A stretch of DNA of 37,323 nt from positions 1 to 37,323 of the IMG/VR virus record IMGVR_UViG_3300043775_001178; one strand, written 5' to 3'. The notes under the pieces were generated by a model. It worked only from the letters and a program-made list of their open reading frames with translations, was not told where the DNA came from and did no database searches. Every line of letters begins with the position of its first letter. The first letter of the stretch is position 1. This document shows, in pieces, positions 2,253-36,679 of this stretch. The position numbers and the translations under genes were made by a program. This DNA is from a virus.

Positions 2253-2470
2253 AGCAGATCGAGCCCGTGCTCCGCACACTGACTCCGCAGCCACTCGCGG
2301 AGCTCTTGGTACGCCACCTCGACATCGTGGCCGAGCTCGCCAGCCTTGATCTCGGTGGCGAGGTGGTCATCGAGCAGGATGACGATCGACTTCGCCCGCG
2401 AGCCCTCAACGCAGTCGCGGAACTCGCCCTCGTCCTCGGGCAGGCGGAATCTCAGCGTGGCGGTTGGCAT
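2249..2470 (-). CDS. Small phage protein of unknown function
   Basis: The protein is about 73 residues. It begins PTATLRFRLPEDEGEF and ends with YQELREWLRSQ, an acidic, mostly helical small protein. The pattern (short beta strand, LPE, then helix ending in WLR) recalls small phage early proteins of unknown role. ATG at 2470 is chosen because the LRFRLPEDE start follows directly; another ATG at 2485 would add five residues. It overlaps the 3' end of the protease gene by about 19 bases. Confidence 0.6.
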   Translation of the reverse strand: MPTATLRFRLPEDEGEFRDCVEGSRAKSIVILLDDHLATEIKAGELGHDVEVAYQELREWLRSQCAEHGLDLL

Positions 2471-3243
2471 CCCGGCATCGTGCATGGCGAGTCAAGTTCG
2501 CCGACAACGCTGCGAATCCAGTCGAGGTAGAGCACCACGCGGGTGTGCCCCGACTCCTCGCCGAGGACGTACCGCGTCTTCCCGCCGACCCTCGCGACGT
2601 AGGAGTTCACGCCGACGAGCCGCGTGCTGCCGTCGATCGCAGTTGCCCAGAGCGGGCCGCCTGAGTCGCCCGGCGCGATGCACGCAGGGAGCGGGCCAGC
2701 GTCGGGCGTCCTGCGAATCGGGCAGACGTACACGCCGTGCTCGATCGACCCGAGGACGCAAGTCCCCGCCCGCAGCCGCTGGTCGCCTCCCGTAAGCCCG
2801 CGAGTGAGCGTGCCCGTCATGCCATACCCCGCAGCGGCAGCGACGCTGCCGAGCCGCTCGGTGCCGTCAGCGAGCATCGGGTACACGTCTGCGTGCCTGT
2901 GCTGTCCGAGCCGCACCAAGGCGATGTCGTGCCAGCCGTGGACGCCTTCCCATTCGGGATGCCGCACGACACGGTCGCACGCGAGACGCTCGCCGCCGAG
3001 CACGACGGTCACCGCCGTCATCTCGTGCGGGACGTGTGCCGCCGTGAGCACCCAGTGCGGCGATATGAGCGTGCCAGAGCCCGCGAGCGGAACGCCTTCG
3101 GCGTTGTTTCCGGTGACCCGCACGACGTATCCCGCGAACGTCGCACCGTAGTCGAGGTATCGGCTGTCGCCTTTTGAGTCATCGATCGTGGCGGCGGATG
3201 CCGCGAGGGCCGACACGGCGATGAGCGTCGCCAAGAGTCGCAT
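2452..3243 (-). CDS. Secreted trypsin-like (S1 family) serine protease
   Basis: The protein is 263 residues. Residues 1-18 form a signal peptide (basic MR, hydrophobic core, ASA-A cleavage site), so the product should be exported. The S1 catalytic triad is complete: H70 in VLTAAHV, D106 in HDIALVRL and S194 in PGDSGGPLW. Paired cysteines (89, 162, 174, 188) could form disulfides outside the cytoplasm. The length is normal for a chymotrypsin-fold domain with nothing added. Such a protease is unusual in a phage. It may be host-derived cargo or may help breach a protein-rich envelope; both are inference. Its promoter region may include the direct repeat just upstream. Confidence 0.9.
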   Translation of the reverse strand: MRLLATLIAVSALAASAATIDDSKGDSRYLDYGATFAGYVVRVTGNNAEGVPLAGSGTLISPHWVLTAAHVPHEMTAVTVVLGGERLACDRVVRHPEWEGVHGWHDIALVRLGQHRHADVYPMLADGTERLGSVAAAAGYGMTGTLTRGLTGGDQRLRAGTCVLGSIEHGVYVCPIRRTPDAGPLPACIAPGDSGGPLWATAIDGSTRLVGVNSYVARVGGKTRYVLGEESGHTRVVLYLDWIRSVVGELDSPCTMPGCQPPR

Positions 3244-3282
3244 GCCCGATCATGGCACGCGAGGCTAGTGGCCTTGCAGTTA

Positions 3283-3314
3283 GCGTGATACACGGAAGCG
3301 GCGTGATACGCGGA
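3283..3314. repeat. 14-bp direct repeat upstream of the protease gene
   Basis: GCGTGATACACGGA and GCGTGATACGCGGA lie 18 bp start to start (13 of 14 identical) in the 88-bp gap between the protease and the next upstream gene. The position, 30-70 bases before the start codon, would suit a regulator binding site. No clear -10/-35 pair was seen around it. Confidence 0.4.
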
Positions 3315-3331
3315 CAGTAGAAACACAAGTT

Positions 3332-3577
3332 CTATTTGTTCTTCCCGACCGCCTTCGTCCCCTTCATGCGGAGCCGAAGTTCTTTCCGCTGCCGATCCAT
3401 CGACGCCCGCTTCGTGTCGAGTCTGGCGTATTCCTTCTTGTCGAACCACACCAGCACGCTTGCCATCCGAGCGTCCAGCCAAGCAATCCCACGATCCAAC
3501 CGTGCCATCCGTTGCCGGTCTGATTTCCGAATCGAGGAGCCGCGACTCGAACGCGGGCCTTGAGCGTTCTCGCTCAT
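3332..3577 (-). CDS. Small basic protein of unknown function
   Basis: The protein is 81 residues, strongly basic and predicted to be helical (RLDRGIAWLDARMASV, then KEYARLDTKRASMDRQRK). The C-terminus is lysine-rich (KGTKAVGKNK). It looks like a nucleic-acid-associated or coiled-coil protein but matches no family I recognise. The ATG is preceded by AGGTGG at good spacing. Its 5' flank is the first of two hairpin repeats, so it may be the native neighbour into which a gene cassette was inserted. Confidence 0.5.
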   Translation of the reverse strand: MSENAQGPRSSRGSSIRKSDRQRMARLDRGIAWLDARMASVLVWFDKKEYARLDTKRASMDRQRKELRLRMKGTKAVGKNK

Positions 3578-3610
3578 GTTCTGCACCACCTAAACTACCC
3601 CTCGAAAAAT

Positions 3611-3662
3611 AGAACCAGCGGATGAAGCGGACGGCAGAGCCGCCGCTTATCCTGTGCGTTCT
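3611..3662. repeat. 52-bp attC-like hairpin repeat, copy 1
   Basis: A near-palindromic element. Ends AGAAC/GTTCT pair; then unpaired spacers (CAGC and TGTGC); then GGAT-G-AAGCGG-A-CGGC pairs with GCCGCCGCTTATCC, leaving a single G and a single A unpaired on the same arm; the loop is AGA. This layout (outer AAC/GTT boxes, spacers, inner boxes with extrahelical bases on one arm) is that of integron attC sites, although the boxes do not match the full GTTRRRY consensus. It starts 4 bases beyond the DUF551 stop codon. On the minus strand it is followed by ATTTTT, so an intrinsic terminator is an alternative reading. Confidence 0.6.
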
Positions 3663-3666
3663 GTGG

Positions 3667-3957
3667 CTACTTGCCGTCCGTTGGCGGTGCCGGAAACGGC
3701 ATCCAGTGCGAAACCAACACCTCATAGTCTCCGCTGAACCACTTGCCGTCGCCGTCATACCACGCCCAGCCTGTGCCGATCCTGCTTGGGTGCCAGACAA
3801 CAACATCATCTACTTGGTCAGGAAGCCGCTCCTCAACTGGAACCCAAGTGAGCATCGCCCGCAGCCGCTCGTAGTCCTGTCGCATGACGTACTGCTCGCC
3901 TTCATGGTTGAAGACAAACGTCGCGTATGGCTTGCTGTCTGCAATCGGATCGTTCAT
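3667..3957 (-). CDS. DUF551-domain protein in a possible gene cassette
   Basis: The protein is 96 residues. The C-terminal half carries the DUF551 pattern: WVPVEERLPD, then VVVWHPSR, then WFSGDYEVLVSHWMPFPAPP. DUF551 proteins are small and common in phages and mobile DNA, with no known biochemical role. The start ATG follows GAGGTGA. The gene sits alone between two 52-bp hairpin repeats, one about 4 bases after its stop and the other about 27 bases before its start, giving a repeat-to-repeat unit of 374 bp. That is the size and layout of an integron-type gene cassette. Confidence 0.75.
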   Translation of the reverse strand: MNDPIADSKPYATFVFNHEGEQYVMRQDYERLRAMLTWVPVEERLPDQVDDVVVWHPSRIGTGWAWYDGDGKWFSGDYEVLVSHWMPFPAPPTDGK

Positions 3958-3984
3958 CGCTTCACCTCGTTTCTCTACGCTCAC

Positions 3985-4036
3985 AGAACCAGCGGATGAA
4001 GCGGACGGCGAGGCCGCCGCTTATCCTGCGCGTTCT
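3985..4036. repeat. 52-bp attC-like hairpin repeat, copy 2
   Basis: 48 of 52 positions are identical to copy 1. Three of the four differences fall in the loop (GAG instead of AGA) and one in an unpaired spacer, so all stem pairs are kept. Its minus-strand start coincides with the stop codon of the upstream gene (TGAGAAC). There is no T-run after it, so termination is less likely here than at copy 1. Confidence 0.6.
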
Positions 4037-4272
4037 CACTTCAACCGATCCAACAACCGCCGCATGGTGTCCGCCGCCTCTTGGTCGGTAGCACCGCCGT
4101 AGACGATGTCTTCGCAGGCTGAGATGCCAGCCTTAATCGCCTCACGCTCCTCGTCTGTAAGCCGCAGACGCTCAATCTCATCCGCCGCCTCGTCCATCAA
4201 GTCGCTCGCGGGCGCAGCGTCCACCGCGTGCGTCCACCGGCGCAGGCGTGTCACGATGTCGGTCACGGTCAC
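4036..4272 (-). CDS. Small acidic helical protein of unknown function
   Basis: The protein is 78 residues (MTVTDIVTRLRRWTHAV...), rich in acidic residues and leucines, with DLMDEAADEIERLRLTDEER suggesting helices or a short coiled coil. The GTG start overlaps the stop of the 47-residue membrane protein gene as GTGA, which decides the start. The stop codon lies exactly at the edge of the second hairpin repeat. No function can be assigned. Confidence 0.6.
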   Translation of the reverse strand: MTVTDIVTRLRRWTHAVDAAPASDLMDEAADEIERLRLTDEEREAIKAGISACEDIVYGGATDQEAADTMRRLLDRLK

Positions 4273-4412
4273 CTCGTCATCCACATCAGTCCCCAGTTCG
4301 CCATTCCGTAGCTCGCCCAAACGACGAACCCGGCAGGGCTGCCCTTCCACCACTGCTCGATCGCGACGCCCCAGTAGATCAGCGAGACGAGGAAGAGGAG
4401 CGGTGCGCTCAT
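4269..4412 (-). CDS. 47-residue membrane protein
   Basis: A short gene beginning MSAPLLFLVSLIYWGVAIEQ and ending NWGLMWMTR. It has two likely membrane helices (residues 3-18 and 28-44) separated by a short charged and polar turn (EQWWKGSP). ATG overlaps the stop of the upstream HTH gene as ATGA, and its own TGA overlaps the GTG of the next gene, so both ends fit the operon exactly. Small two-helix phage proteins of this type are sometimes holins or superinfection-exclusion proteins. Nothing here shows which. Confidence 0.6.
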   Translation of the reverse strand: MSAPLLFLVSLIYWGVAIEQWWKGSPAGFVVWASYGMANWGLMWMTR

Positions 4413-6469: not shown

Positions 6470-7101
6470 GGCGACTCCTCCGTAAGTGTGCCTGTGCGTG
6501 CAAGAGCGGCGGCGCAACCTCTCGAAAACTCTGGCTGCGGCTGAGGCTCGGACGGTCCTTCACCGTCCGTGGCGTCAGCCGCATTGGTTATTTCAGTGGT
6601 ATTTACTGGAATACCACTGAATAAGACTGAATAGTGGTCACAAGGCGTGCGCGCTCCGGACACACTGTGTGCGCGCTCCGGACACACTGTGTGCGCGCTC
6701 TGGACACGAGGTGTGTCCACCCCGGACACACTGTGTGTGCGCGCCTGCGCACAAGGCGTGTCCGGGGTGGACACACTGTGTGTGCGCCCCACGACCGTGT
6801 ATTTCGACCGACCGGAGCCTTCTCTTTTTGCCGAGATTGCCAGGATTTCCTCGCGGACCATCTGCTCGACGCCCCTGCGAATAGCCGTCGGGCTCACCTT
6901 CATCACCCGCGCGACGTGCCGCATGGAGAACCGGATCTCGCCGGTAGACCAATCGGCCCGCTCAAAGACGTAGTGAGCCACGAGACGCCCCTCGCTACCC
7001 AGGCGGGCCAGAGAGCCGTCCTCGATAAACGCCCGCACGCGGCGACGCAGTTCGCCCTTGCCTGACTTGGCTGGCGACTTGGATACCTTGCGCTTTGCCA
7101 T
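6466..7101 (-). CDS. Replication initiator, lambda O-like, with internal origin repeats
   Basis: The protein is 211 residues. A lysine-rich N-terminus leads to a winged-helix domain at about residues 20-105 (GRLVAHYVFERADWS, IRFSMRHVARVMKVSPTAIR, VEQMVREEILAI), typical of phage replisome organisers. The middle (about 108-160) is low complexity with repeated THSVS, DTPC and AHSVSGA, the product of 22-bp DNA repeats whose period is not a multiple of three. The C-terminus is acidic and proline-rich. The gene lies directly downstream of the primase-helicase, two bases apart. As in lambda O, the protein probably binds repeats within its own gene and loads the helicase. Confidence 0.7.
   Translation of the reverse strand: MAKRKVSKSPAKSGKGELRRRVRAFIEDGSLARLGSEGRLVAHYVFERADWSTGEIRFSMRHVARVMKVSPTAIRRGVEQMVREEILAISAKREGSGRSKYTVVGRTHSVSTPDTPCAQARTHSVSGVDTPRVQSAHTVCPERAHSVSGARTPCDHYSVLFSGIPVNTTEITNAADATDGEGPSEPQPQPEFSRGCAAALARTGTLTEESP
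6584..6640. other. AT-rich stretch with 9-bp inverted repeat (possible unwinding element)
   Basis: A clear AT-rich patch in GC-rich DNA, directly beside the 22-bp repeats and inside the initiator gene. It contains CAGTGGTAT (6594-6602) and ATACCACTG (6611-6619), a perfect 9-bp inverted repeat with an 8-base loop. Such a patch next to initiator-binding repeats is where strands open in lambda-type and iteron origins. The role here is inferred. Confidence 0.55.
6647..6779. repeat. Tandem 22-bp repeats (candidate origin iterons)
   Basis: Six head-to-tail units start at 6647, 6669, 6691, 6713, 6737 and 6758. Units 1 and 2 are identical. Units 1, 2, 4 and 6 share the core GGACACACTGT. Where it runs into the following GTG it makes CACAC-T-GTGTG, a perfect dyad. 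A 22-bp spacing puts each site two helical turns apart on the same DNA face. The period does not preserve the reading frame, so selection on the DNA rather than on the peptide is likely. Partial units flank both ends. Confidence 0.75.
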
Positions 7102-15210: not shown

Positions 15211-16359
15211 ATGACACTCCGCGACCTGCTCAAGATCTACGCCGTGAGGCACGCGCTCAAGGATCGCACCGTCAAACTGTTCGCCACGTCGCTCGATCGG
15301 TTTGAGGAATGGCTCGGGCGTCCATCAACGCTCGACGACCTCGACGACACGGCAATCGCTCAGTTCTCGCGGTGGCGAGCAGAGACGCCGCACTGGCGTG
15401 GCAAGCCGCCACGACCGGCCACGGTGAAGAAAGACCTCACGAGCGTCGTCACGCTCTGGGCTCACGCTGCAAAAAAACGGATGACCCGCAGCGATGGCAC
15501 GCTGATCGAGCACCCAGACCTCCCGCGAGGGTTGGTCAAGGTGTCCATCCGCCCTCCTCGCGGATACTCGCTCGACGAGATCGACGCGATGCTCAAGGCG
15601 GCGCTGTCCTACCGTGGCAGCGTCGGCCCGGTCCCGGCATGGTGGCTCTTTCGGTCGCTCCTAATGTGCGCGTGGCAGACCGGCGAGCGGATCGGCGGGC
15701 TCATGTCGGTGCGATGGCGTGATGTAGATCTTGAGACCCGCCGCGTCTTGTTCGACGGCGCGGGGAGGAAGGGCGGCGTGAAGACGATCATCCGCAGCAT
15801 CACGCCCGAGCTCGCTCGGTTGCTCGCCAAGCACCGCCGCAACGACGACGACCTCGTGTGGCCGTGGGTCGAGCACCGCGAGTTTGAGTCCCTGTGGGGA
15901 TCGCTCAAGCAGATCTGCCGCCGTGCTGGCGTTCCCTGCCGTGGCTTCCATTCGATCCGCAAGACATCCGGTTCGTTCGTCGCCGCCGGGGGCGGGGATG
16001 CTACCGAATTCCTGTCGCACTCGGACAGCAAGACGACCAGGACGCACTACCTCATCGACGAAATCGTGCGCCGCGACGACCCGCTCGACCTCCTCCCCAA
16101 GCTCCCCAGCGAGCGACGTGCGGCCCGCCCAGCCCCGCCACCGGCCCCGAAGCCGCCCACGCCTGCACGGGCGTCCAGCGGCCCCGTAGAAGCCGGTGCG
16201 GTGGTCGGGCGGTCGATGGCCGCCCGAGGGCTCGCCTGCCCGCCACGGGCTCAGCACGACGCCCTGGCAGCGGCTGCGGGCATCGAGCCCGAGGACGTGG
16301 CGGCGTTTAGCCGGGGGCTCCTCGACGGGTGGATCGCCGGGCAGGGGGATGCGGCGTAG
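15211..16359 (+). CDS. int: Tyrosine recombinase / phage integrase
   Basis: The protein is 382 residues. It has an N-terminal SAM-like core-binding domain (about 1-110) and a catalytic domain with Arg I in TGERIGGL (R160), HxxR in FHSIRKTSG (H247, R250), H270 in LSHSDSKTTR and the nucleophile Y280 in THYL. After residue 300 a roughly 80-residue proline- and alanine-rich extension follows, with no known domain. It inserts phage DNA at a host attB site. GAGGAAG lies 3 bases before the ATG. It is the only clear plus-strand gene, flanked by two excisionase-type HTH genes; the attP core cannot be found without a host junction. Confidence 0.93.
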   Translation: MTLRDLLKIYAVRHALKDRTVKLFATSLDRFEEWLGRPSTLDDLDDTAIAQFSRWRAETPHWRGKPPRPATVKKDLTSVVTLWAHAAKKRMTRSDGTLIEHPDLPRGLVKVSIRPPRGYSLDEIDAMLKAALSYRGSVGPVPAWWLFRSLLMCAWQTGERIGGLMSVRWRDVDLETRRVLFDGAGRKGGVKTIIRSITPELARLLAKHRRNDDDLVWPWVEHREFESLWGSLKQICRRAGVPCRGFHSIRKTSGSFVAAGGGDATEFLSHSDSKTTRTHYLIDEIVRRDDPLDLLPKLPSERRAARPAPPPAPKPPTPARASSGPVEAGAVVGRSMAARGLACPPRAQHDALAAAAGIEPEDVAAFSRGLLDGWIAGQGDAA

Positions 16360-33815: not shown

Positions 33816-34821
33816 GCTGCGTCAGGTACTCGCGGAGTTCTCGGGCACGGGCCGCCGCAGCCATGCGACGATGAGCCTCGGCGTCACGCTGACGGCGGAA
33901 CGCATCGTAGGACCGCTGGGCAACTTTCACGTCTGCGTCGGGGTATGCCGGGAACGTGACCGGCCCGACATCGAGCAGCGAGTCGATCCGCTGGATCGTC
34001 CTGACGCTACGGCCGTCCTCGACGCTCCAGGCGTCACCGCCGCTTGGGACTGTGAAACTAAAAGAACTTCCCTTGACAATGGACGCACGGATATTGCTCG
34101 CGATGTCCCGGCCGTAGGAAGTGTCAGGCACCGGGAACTCATATCGCAGCCCGATCTCGTCCACGCTCATCGACAACGTGCCGGGATACCTCGCGAGCGG
34201 GTAGTTCGCGTCGTGATTCCAGAGGGCGCGAGTCTCCAGCGGCTTCCGACGCCCGCGACGCTCGGCGACGATGCCGAACGCACCTGGGTCGATCCGCTCG
34301 ATGAACGAGCCTTCGAGCTCCAGCGAGAGCACACCGAACTTCGCCGCGTAGCCGACGATGTACTCGCGCTCGCTGCCGTCGTCCTCGCTGCGGCTCTCGA
34401 CCGCGAGCAGCGGCACCGCCGACTCGACTTCGTCAATCGCCAGACTGCGTCGCTCGATGTTCATCGTGTGGCTCCTGTCGTTCTCGTCCGCTGCCTCGAT
34501 CTGCCGCGTCAACTTGCTCGCCCATGCCTGCCCCGGATCGCCGCCCCAGAGAGCCCATGCGATCCGGCCCGCGCTCGGGAATCCGTCCTGCCCCGGACTC
34601 CATCCCTCGCCCTGCTTGTCCACCTCGTGCCGGGCGAAATAGCTCGCCATCCGCTTCGCAGTGTCCGGTGAGATGTTCGTGCCGTTCGATAGGTCGCGTG
34701 CTCGGGCAACGCCGACTGCCGTGCCGCCTCGGCCGTACTCGCCGCGCCATGCCAGCCCTCGGGCCGCCTCCTCCCGCACGCCCGACGGCGGCGAGAAGTC
34801 GATGTGGTCGTACCTAGCCAC
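33805..34821 (-). CDS. Prohead protease fused to an N-terminal domain
   Basis: The protein is 338 residues. Residues 1-110 are a separate domain (IDFSPPSGVREEAARGLAWR, SPDTAKRMASYFARHEVD, GRIAWALWGGDPGQAW) seen in several phage morphogenesis proteins. Residues about 130-300 are the HK97 prohead protease: WNHDANYPLARY with the catalytic histidine H203 and IVKGSSFSFTV with the serine (S252 or S253). An internal ATG at 34464 is preceded by AGGAG, so the bare protease (219 residues) may also be made. It cleaves the capsid delta domain during maturation and overlaps the portal gene by 8 bases. Confidence 0.87.
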   Translation of the reverse strand: MARYDHIDFSPPSGVREEAARGLAWRGEYGRGGTAVGVARARDLSNGTNISPDTAKRMASYFARHEVDKQGEGWSPGQDGFPSAGRIAWALWGGDPGQAWASKLTRQIEAADENDRSHTMNIERRSLAIDEVESAVPLLAVESRSEDDGSEREYIVGYAAKFGVLSLELEGSFIERIDPGAFGIVAERRGRRKPLETRALWNHDANYPLARYPGTLSMSVDEIGLRYEFPVPDTSYGRDIASNIRASIVKGSSFSFTVPSGGDAWSVEDGRSVRTIQRIDSLLDVGPVTFPAYPDADVKVAQRSYDAFRRQRDAEAHRRMAAAARARELREYLTQHGR

Positions 34822-36679
34822 GTCGTCGCCTCCGTGGCTTCGCCCGTGGCTCCTCCGCAGGCGGCGGCTCGGGCAGCGGGTCGATCTTCGTGAGCGTGCT
34901 CACCTTGTGCCCGACCTGTGTCTCGGTCGGCCGCCAGCCGCCGCTGACCTCTTCGTACACCGTGATGAGCGCCGCCGGGTCTTCCTCGCTCGCCTCAATC
35001 GTGAAGTCGGTGCCCGGCACGTCGAGCCGCCCGTAGTCCATCACGTGGTCGATGCGCCCGCGAGCTCGCCCGCCAGACGAGCCCCACGAGACGTAGTCTC
35101 CCTCGGCGACCGTGCCGGGCTCGGCACGCTCTTCGAGCGACCTCGCGGGGGCGTCTTCGACGACCGGCACCGGCTGCGGCTGCGCATCCGCTGCTGGCGC
35201 AGGCTGACGCTCGACCACCCCTGCGAGGATCGCGTCGATCTGTGCGGGCGGGATGCTCGGGAATGACGCAGCGATCATTGCCGCAGCGCCCTCGCGGGTG
35301 ACGAGACCATCGGAGATCGCCTGCACGATCGCGATGAGCCCGGTGATCTGGGCACCGTTGAGCGATACCTCGGCGACCTGGGGCGTGGCGTCCTCGACGA
35401 CCACCTCTTCCACGACTGGAGTGGGTTCGCCTTCGGCAGCGGCCACGCCGCCCTCGACCGCCTGACCGTCGATGCCGCTGCCTTCTTGCTGCTGGGCGAG
35501 CACGTCATCGACCGAAGGCGGGGCACCGAGCGTGCCCATGTTCAGCGGGCGATACCGCTCGTCGCCACCATCGACCGGGTTGCGGTTCTCTAGTTCGAGG
35601 ATGTCGTTCGTCGAGAGCGCTCCGATGTCCCACATCGCCCGGTAGTACGCCGAGCGGCTCGCGGCGTCGCCACGCATGAGCCCGCGAACGTCGAACTCGA
35701 CGAAGTAGCGGTCGTCGTCGCTGATGAGGTCGCGCTGAAACGCCGACTCGAAGCGACGCAGCCACGGGAGGATCGTGTGCTGCACGTAGTCGAGACCGGC
35801 GTGCTCCACCGAGCCGGGACTCGTCTCGGCACCGAGCAGGTGGAGAGGCACGCGAAACAACCGGGCGATCTCAGCCAACTGCCACTTCCTGGCCTCGATG
35901 AACTGCGAATCGTGCATCGACGCCTGCGGGATCTCGATCGGCTTGAGACCGCCGACGAGCACCGCCGTGCGGTTGCTGTTATTGACGCCGCCGTGCATCC
36001 GCTCCCAGTTGGCACGCAGCGACTCGCGGGCCTCGGCGTTGAGCTCGCCATCCGTGCTGAGCACAAAGCCCGGCCTCGCTCCGTTGCCGAAGAATCGGGC
36101 ACCGTGGAGCTCGCACGCCCGAGCCAGCGCGATCGCGTCCTTGCAACTCTCGACGACGCTCATGCCATGAACGCCGTCGTCGCTCGGCCCACGCATGTGC
36201 AGGATCGCGTCCTGCGAGTACACCGTCTCGCGGCCGTTCTCCTCGCGGTACTTGTAGCGGAGCCGCCCGTTCTCGATCCGCTCCACCGTCATGCGAGACG
36301 GGTGCAGTGGAATGAGTTGATCGACCGCACCGGACGCTCCCGAGCGGATCTCGCTGAAAGCGTCGCCCCAGAGCCCAACGTGGAAAACCGCCTGCTCGCG
36401 CCACTCGAAGCTCGTCTGCCATTCGTTCGGCTGCTGGTGAAGGCGGCGGTACAGTGGCAACTCGACGGCACGGCGAGTCCCGCGAGTCATCCGTTCGAGC
36501 ACGTGGAGCGGCAGGCTCGCGACGGTCTCCGACAGGATTCGCAGGCACGCGAACACCGCCGACACTTGCAGGGCGTTGCTCGCGTCGATGCGGATTCCGG
36601 CGGCCGAGCGGGACGAGTACTCCTCGTCCCACATCCGCTCCTCACCGGGCAGCCAGAGAATTCGATGCTGTGCGATCAT
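34814..36679 (-). CDS. Portal protein, HK97 type, with C-terminal extensions
   Basis: The protein is 621 residues, about 200 longer than a core HK97 portal. The core (about 1-390) shows VFACLRILSETVASLPLHVL, VFHVGLWGDAFSEI, HMRGPSDDGVHGMSVV, AEIARLFRVPLHLLG and FDVRGLMRGDAASRSAYYRA. After it come an acidic linker, a small domain (ITGLIAIVQAISDGLVTREG) and a C-terminal EGDYVSWGSSGGRARGRIDH barrel found fused to other phage morphogenesis proteins. The portal ring gates DNA packaging. ATG overlaps the terminase stop as TGATG. Confidence 0.93.
   Translation of the reverse strand: MIAQHRILWLPGEERMWDEEYSSRSAAGIRIDASNALQVSAVFACLRILSETVASLPLHVLERMTRGTRRAVELPLYRRLHQQPNEWQTSFEWREQAVFHVGLWGDAFSEIRSGASGAVDQLIPLHPSRMTVERIENGRLRYKYREENGRETVYSQDAILHMRGPSDDGVHGMSVVESCKDAIALARACELHGARFFGNGARPGFVLSTDGELNAEARESLRANWERMHGGVNNSNRTAVLVGGLKPIEIPQASMHDSQFIEARKWQLAEIARLFRVPLHLLGAETSPGSVEHAGLDYVQHTILPWLRRFESAFQRDLISDDDRYFVEFDVRGLMRGDAASRSAYYRAMWDIGALSTNDILELENRNPVDGGDERYRPLNMGTLGAPPSVDDVLAQQQEGSGIDGQAVEGGVAAAEGEPTPVVEEVVVEDATPQVAEVSLNGAQITGLIAIVQAISDGLVTREGAAAMIAASFPSIPPAQIDAILAGVVERQPAPAADAQPQPVPVVEDAPARSLEERAEPGTVAEGDYVSWGSSGGRARGRIDHVMDYGRLDVPGTDFTIEASEEDPAALITVYEEVSGGWRPTETQVGHKVSTLTKIDPLPEPPPAEEPRAKPRRRRRG

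Follow-up and report, generated by a model that had tools for sequence, protein, structure and literature searches.

Integron-type attachment sites and reversed gene cassettes without an integron integrase in phages presumed to infect Planctomycetes

The 37,323 nt stretch of viral DNA analysed here (IMG/VR record IMGVR_UViG_3300043775_001178, taken as a whole and hereafter called the window) carries an attI-like docking site and a short row of gene cassettes but no integron integrase, and about a hundred other viral contigs likewise have a docking site, a changing row of cassettes and no such enzyme. We are largely confident that these parts form an integron platform that lacks an integron integrase, resides in temperate phages of Planctomycetes and is worked in trans by the integron integrase (IntI) of the host, the IntI step being inferred. 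Integrons are bacterial gene-capture devices, and since a docking site and cassettes are present without an integron integrase, the integrase of the host is probably used. Via this enzyme of its planctomycete host the window phage probably swaps genes with other phages; no recombination was observed. The window is identified as phage DNA by genes for a portal protein, a major head protein, a tape measure protein, a DnaB helicase and a sliding clamp, and its PF00589 integrase suggests a temperate phage. A Pfam portal protein was also detected in 22 of 46 and in 15 of 38 searched records, the two lists overlapping slightly. The portal protein of the window (34817-36679, minus strand) has a C-terminal Hva1_TUDOR-like domain, which is seemingly unusual for a portal.

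An earlier note, made from the letters of the window alone, had read two 52-bp elements around one small gene as a possible integron-type cassette. This reading was essentially right and is supported by the data below, the system being larger than stated. Both elements (Table 1) were recovered at the same positions with the same identity, 48 of 52 nt (92%), and a start-to-start distance of 374 nt. Each has the outer boxes AGAAC and GTTCT and an inner helix with an unpaired G and an unpaired A on the same arm; this attC-like layout, also described before, was reproduced by DNA folding with z-scores of -3.5 to -4.5, and none of 200 shuffled sequences folded equally well. Two cautions raised at that time were justified, namely that the outer box reads GTTCT rather than GTTRRRY and that the gene runs antiparallel to the element, the stop of the minus-strand DUF551 gene (3667-3669) abutting attC1. 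Concerning the extent, the two elements and the gene between them stood, while the array was found to begin at 3330 and to include a third segment from 4033 to about 4270. What had been described did not include the attI or the first cassette, nor the reversal of genes throughout the system and the start codons in attC loops. No match to Rfam was obtained for the window.

Table 1. Predicted features of the cassette array and the phage integrase gene in the window
Feature	Position	Strand	Remarks
attI-like site	3273..3331	+	Crossover expected at G3329/T3330 (AAACACAAG/TT; stroke, crossover)
Cassette 1	3330..3658	+	329 bp; TT...attC1...G
Cassette 1 gene	3332..3577	-	81 aa; AGGTGG precedes ATG; stop TAG overlaps R box
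attC1	3611..3662	+	52 nt, short loop; extrahelical G and A on 5' arm; folding; covariance model 66.3 bits; family covariation
Cassette 2	3659..4032	+	374 bp; start TTCTGTG complements CACAGAA of attC2
Cassette 2 gene (DUF551)	3667..3957	-	96 aa; PF04448, 1.4e-9; antiparallel to its attC; GAGGTG before ATG
attC2	3985..4036	+	52 nt; folding; covariance model 67.4 bits
Third inserted segment	4033..4270	+	Decayed cassette; no recognisable attC
Tyrosine integrase (PF00589, 2.5e-10)	15211..16359	+	Not IntI; no TIGR02249 match in window record

The exact 32-base inner pattern of the elements was present in 54 viral contigs and in one planctomycete MAG. Since different genes flank it each time, the element is a dispersed site. 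The loops of the 17 element variants compared range from 2 to about 40 nt; the arms of these variants co-varied, and the unpaired G and A were invariant. Compensatory double changes occurred at 10 of 19 pairs, covariation was seen in both helices, and 93.8% of the cells were paired, a value reached by none of 500 shuffles; the pairs changed on both sides numbered 10, in 33 cells, compared to 4.8 and 8.0 in shuffles. A covariance model built from the family of the window elements (R1) matched 186 copies at 56 loci. A second exact pattern, representing the long-loop type, gave 45 further contigs, in which R1 detected 147 one-stranded copies, up to 15 per contig. Within each contig all attC copies share one strand, with L035 as the sole exception, and the crossover triplets AAC and GTT were present in 159 of 162 elements. 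The R box was GTTCT in 124 and GTTAT in 32 of the 186 copies and the full GTTRRRY consensus was not met. We counted this consensus as descriptive, not defining, for attC; moreover, the R boxes of the presumed host family are mostly GTTCG, GTTCT or GTTCC too, which implies that the departure is a trait of the clade. Two checks proposed in the earlier note had the outcome expected of integron sites: the covariance search, performed with our own family model instead of IntegronFinder/HattCI, led to attC arrays adjoining canonical IntI in Planctomycetes, and the genome comparison revealed related phages without the unit (see below). The elements form arrays of up to 15 copies on the same strand, between many different small genes. 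Judged from their sequences, the 52-bp elements of the window are integron attC sites, whereas their recombination by IntI is inferred. With two attC sites and no IntI the window qualifies as a CALIN, but unlike a plain CALIN it has an attI. Neither the isolate phages of INPHARED nor the plasmids of PLSDB matched the window array, and thus there is no cultured example.

As the note had left open, the elements might instead be intrinsic terminators that were duplicated and lie downstream of unrelated genes. They do form strong hairpins, and element 1 is followed by a T-run when read on the minus strand; the minus-strand flank, however, is GGTTCTGTGAGCGTAG in most copies, without a T-run. Arrays on one strand with varied small genes, cassette-sized spacing, the conserved unpaired G and A, the complementary cassette ends, the precise empty site and homologous sites beside IntI leave next to no room for this explanation. 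Termination as the main function is refuted, while termination as a side effect is possible.

An integron cassette begins with bases that complement the left flank of its own attC. Cassette 1 begins with CTATTT, the complement of the AAATAG flank preceding AAC of attC1. Across 113 cassettes the five bases after GTT complemented the flank of their own far attC in 96, 97, 96, 89 and 83% of the cases, respectively, and complementarity amounted to 5.37 of 8 positions compared to 3.46 upon shuffling (maximum 3.9). A further 96 cassettes, from new contigs, confirmed this (5.17 versus 3.43 shuffled, maximum 3.82). Such complementarity was absent when the flanks of a single element were compared with each other, and also with shuffled partners. 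In five of seven pairs of cassettes with at least 90% identical bodies, the right attC moved with the gene (0.92-0.98) and the left attC differed. As a recurring gene usually keeps its right-hand attC, the unit consists of the body and the right-hand attC, as in classical integrons. Near-identical bodies (MCDDDSVMWPS...) in L010, L031 and L047 are joined to two attC types of about 45 and 84 nt, a disagreement which suggests that the attC hairpins themselves get swapped. Near-identical cassettes also recur beside different neighbours. A precise TT...attC...G unit with complementary ends that is missing at an empty site satisfies the test for an integron gene cassette.

The cargo of the cassettes comprises DUF551, Dam and C5 DNA methylases, HTH_17, HAD and MUG113/T5orf172 proteins, and relatives of the DUF551 gene of the window are the commonest cassette genes across the arrays. 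A longer reading of the cassette 1 gene (3335-3589) had no Pfam match. In the same cassette, ARAGORN reported a tRNA-like fold that lacks a clear anticodon at 3531-3605 on the minus strand, overlapping the start of the gene, which may be due to chance. The gene reading of the third segment (4036-4353, minus strand) is of the LTDEEREA...LERLK type that is frequent in cassettes, and its stop codon TGA overlaps the R box; sequence resembling this segment occurs in several other contigs.

Contigs that otherwise differ share a conserved sequence upstream of the first cassette (...GTTAT.CGGC...GCG.TTATCCGGGTCCGCATAAACACTGG/TT), and this attI-like site lies before the first cassette in more than 25 phage contigs, the first-cassette start being placed solely by complementarity to the first attC. 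A sequence-only attI model (R2), whose training set included the window, scored 27.8 bits on the window site. It also matched contigs outside the training set, including the relative with an empty site (L093), and matched 20 of 45 new contigs. All 19 matches with E<0.001 share the strand of the attCs and precede the first attC by 192-444 bp; none is within an array. A motif scan for attI in viral contigs, by sequence alone, found attC arrays in all four evaluable new contigs. One requirement for a complete integron, an attI ahead of the array, is fulfilled.

Relatives of the window phage were located via the sliding clamp. They are 82-92% identical to it and align to the window up to position 3332 and again from 4271. 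In L093 only about 10 nt separate these positions, with the junction AACACTAG/TTCC, and both cassette 1 and the third segment are absent. The absence of the unit in related phages, which the earlier note had suggested to look for, was found exactly at the predicted G/TT. The same G/TT holds one attC in L090, two in L092 and four in L091, and the third segment is replaced in these three and in L094. Overall, related phages carry 0, 1, 2, 3 or 4 cassettes at an exact shared insertion point. L094 has about 2.5 kb of different DNA without an attC match at the same attI, apparently with PAPS-reductase-like and ParB-like genes as judged by eye only. A trypsin-like protease gene (2455-3243, minus strand), situated directly beyond the attI-like site, is kept in related phages.

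Homologous recombination between attC copies, instead of site-specific recombination, could also shuffle arrays, and some attCs of the same array are 92-100% identical over 52 bp. It would have to account for a base-exact G/TT junction at the empty site, for a first cassette that is always at attI, and for cassette ends that fit their own attC even where neighbouring attCs differ in length (about 44 to 93 nt); we consider it highly improbable. Alternatively, the array might be an ordinary CALIN, a piece of a host array carried passively by the phage without continuing exchange. Phages with CALINs have been described (PMC9892861), the types of attC and attI match those of the host family, and the third segment of the window has no attC. 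However, six related phages have different cassette sets at a base-exact site, one of them being empty, dozens of contigs have attI and cassettes, and the cassettes are reversed and attC-started, unlike those of the host, with near-identical ones beside different neighbours. Passive carriage is therefore unlikely, and an exchange of cassettes through the host integrase remains our preferred explanation.

A model of the integron integrase (TIGR02249) found no IntI above cut-off in any of 44 and 38 virus records. All of these records are metagenomic and possibly incomplete, and IntI could lie beyond them. The criterion of an intI beside the attI is not met, and the phage is consequently not classed as carrying a complete integron. 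On the host side, MAG contig L055 encodes a canonical IntI (443.7 bits, cut-off 265), which is followed by an attI and a reversed DUF551 cassette with a 51-nt attC; the other genes of this contig are chromosomal by ORF reading (ABC-F ATPase, sulfurtransferase, ROK kinase and hopanoid radical-SAM protein). Among the 72 genomes of the host family, that of the MAG JAIXPT01 ('Planctomycetaceae bacterium'), 27 encode an IntI over the cut-off and 42 contain the phage attC type (E <= 1e-7). The phage-derived model R2 matched between IntI and the first attC at 11 of 19 host-family loci, and the attI of the window relative L090 shares 44 of 53 positions with that of host locus L248. Elsewhere in the phylum, recognisably related attCs were found beside IntI; they have GTTAG boxes, and the G and A are likewise unpaired on the corresponding arm. 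Members of this Planctomycetes family are presumed to be the hosts, on the basis of shared attC, attI and one cassette, without a CRISPR or prophage link. Two contigs of the host MAG (C57 and C319 of G050) have further IntI-like frames under the IntI cut-off (84 and 69 bits).

The homology of the phage attI and attC to sites adjoining canonical IntI also bears on the possibility that the sites merely resemble integron sites and are worked by the tyrosine integrase of the phage or another non-IntI recombinase. Such PF00589 integrases are present in 21 of 49 contigs in addition to the window, but they score far under the IntI model cut-off and are missing from many array-carrying fragments, which makes their involvement very unlikely.

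In the new contigs, phage cassettes had genes only on the strand opposite to the attC in 60 cases, only on the attC strand in one, on both in 23 and on neither in 12. The classical orientation with a 3' attC, which is usual though not strictly defining, is not met in phage cassettes. In contrast, genes of other Planctomycetes lie on the attC strand, start a few to about 30 nt past GTT and end at the attC. Clearly bounded ORFs of the host family were plus-only in 15 cases and minus-only in one; since 44 of 60 host-family cassettes had no clearly bounded ORF, the contrast to the host rests on a minority. The stop codon of phage cassette genes falls on the leading R box (GTT/CTA, GTT/CTCA or GTTA). 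Where the attC loop is short, the start and its ribosome-binding site are just outside the attC, as in the DUF551 gene of the window. Where the loop is long, 40 of 53 cassettes and, in the test set, 52 of 61 have the start within the attC; 50 of the latter 52 use one frame through the arm. This frame yields N-termini such as MSDDNTQDGAEPSPASAGY; translation from the attC is inferred. The window has no long-loop attC, and for these starts the claim rests on its relatives; the counts of orientations and starts are less than independent as attC types share descent. Cassettes are co-directional with the flanking phage genes clearly in the window and only as a trend overall (53:25 on the left and 57:24 on the right, crude ORF caller). 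A reversed intI as reason for the reversed genes was rejected, because other Planctomycetes have classical genes although their integrase is likewise directed toward the array.

According to the mechanism proposed here, a cassette would be a circle-forming unit, TT-[gene, reversed]-attC-G. Host IntI, acting in trans, would join the folded single-stranded attC to an attI or to another attC by a crossover at G/TT, both this catalysis and the single-stranded intermediate being inferred. Cassettes could come from another phage, a prophage or the host's own array, and the single strand could be supplied by phage infection or replication, in an infected or a lysogenic host. Related phages would in this way trade small genes at one fixed place, such as those for DUF551, DNA methyltransferases, GIY-YIG-type and HTH proteins. 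As the cassette genes face the attI, a promoter on the attI side would not express them, and the cassettes may be transcribed from a phage promoter past the far end of the array; we propose that selection favours reversed cassette genes because the platform is located in a phage operon read from that end. The arm of a long-loop attC, read in a fixed frame, would encode an N-terminal tag, for instance MSDDNTQDGAEPSPASAG(S/Y), with the start and the ribosome-binding site in the loop. A benefit to the phage is likewise inferred, and protection against host restriction is plausible for the methylases only. We lean, with some reservation, towards the further interpretation that phages of one planctomycete family have their own integron dialect, composed of a conserved attI without integrase, a shared pool of reversed cassettes and an attC serving as both translation-start module and in-frame N-terminal tag, with cassettes being swapped by host IntI during infection and lying antisense and silent in host arrays.

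Integron parts in phages are already known, including one prophage array with attI, and the kind of system is known in this respect (PMC9892861). The CALINs and integrons of bacteriophages described there (Qi et al. 2023) have attC sites and small cassettes without IntI, as do the phages analysed here; five of six tested attCs from three virulent phages recombined with attI1 via IntI1, and an attI of its own was found in one Shewanella prophage array. These were isolated cases with bacterial-type gene orientation, except for divergent attCs in one phage, whereas the present contigs show a conserved attI in dozens of cases, an empty site, variable arrays at one locus, reversed genes and starts inside attC. 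Planctomycete sedentary chromosomal integrons share with the phages homologous attI and attC, the unpaired G and A and the complementary ends, but have an IntI, which the phages lack, and mainly classical cassettes with the gene on the attC strand and a 3' attC; in one host array the first cassette is a reversed DUF551 cassette of the phage type. Mobile integrons of the classical kind (class 1, with attI1 and Pc) use the G/TT crossover and the TT...attC...G cassette unit. Both are shared by the phage platform, which differs in having no IntI, a GTTCT or GTTAT R box and genes that face the attI. In the literature covered, which is incomplete, we found neither systematically reversed cassettes with attC starts nor an attI platform that lacks an integrase and is conserved in a large group of phages.

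These data imply that the phages, represented by a large set of contigs, contribute docking site and cassettes and leave the enzyme to the host, with phages acting as reservoir and vehicle of integron cassettes. This offers a direct explanation for the rapid exchange of small phage genes, e.g. orphan methyltransferases. Reversed cassettes with starts in the recombination hairpin represent an unexpected union of recombination site and translation start, and the reversal provides a clean test of selection on the orientation of cassette genes. Outside the array, imperfect GGACACACTGTGTGCGCGCTCC repeats with a spacing of 22 bp were observed at 6635-6790, beside a 37-nt inverted repeat and just downstream of a helicase-primase gene; this region is possibly a replication origin or a regulator-binding region.
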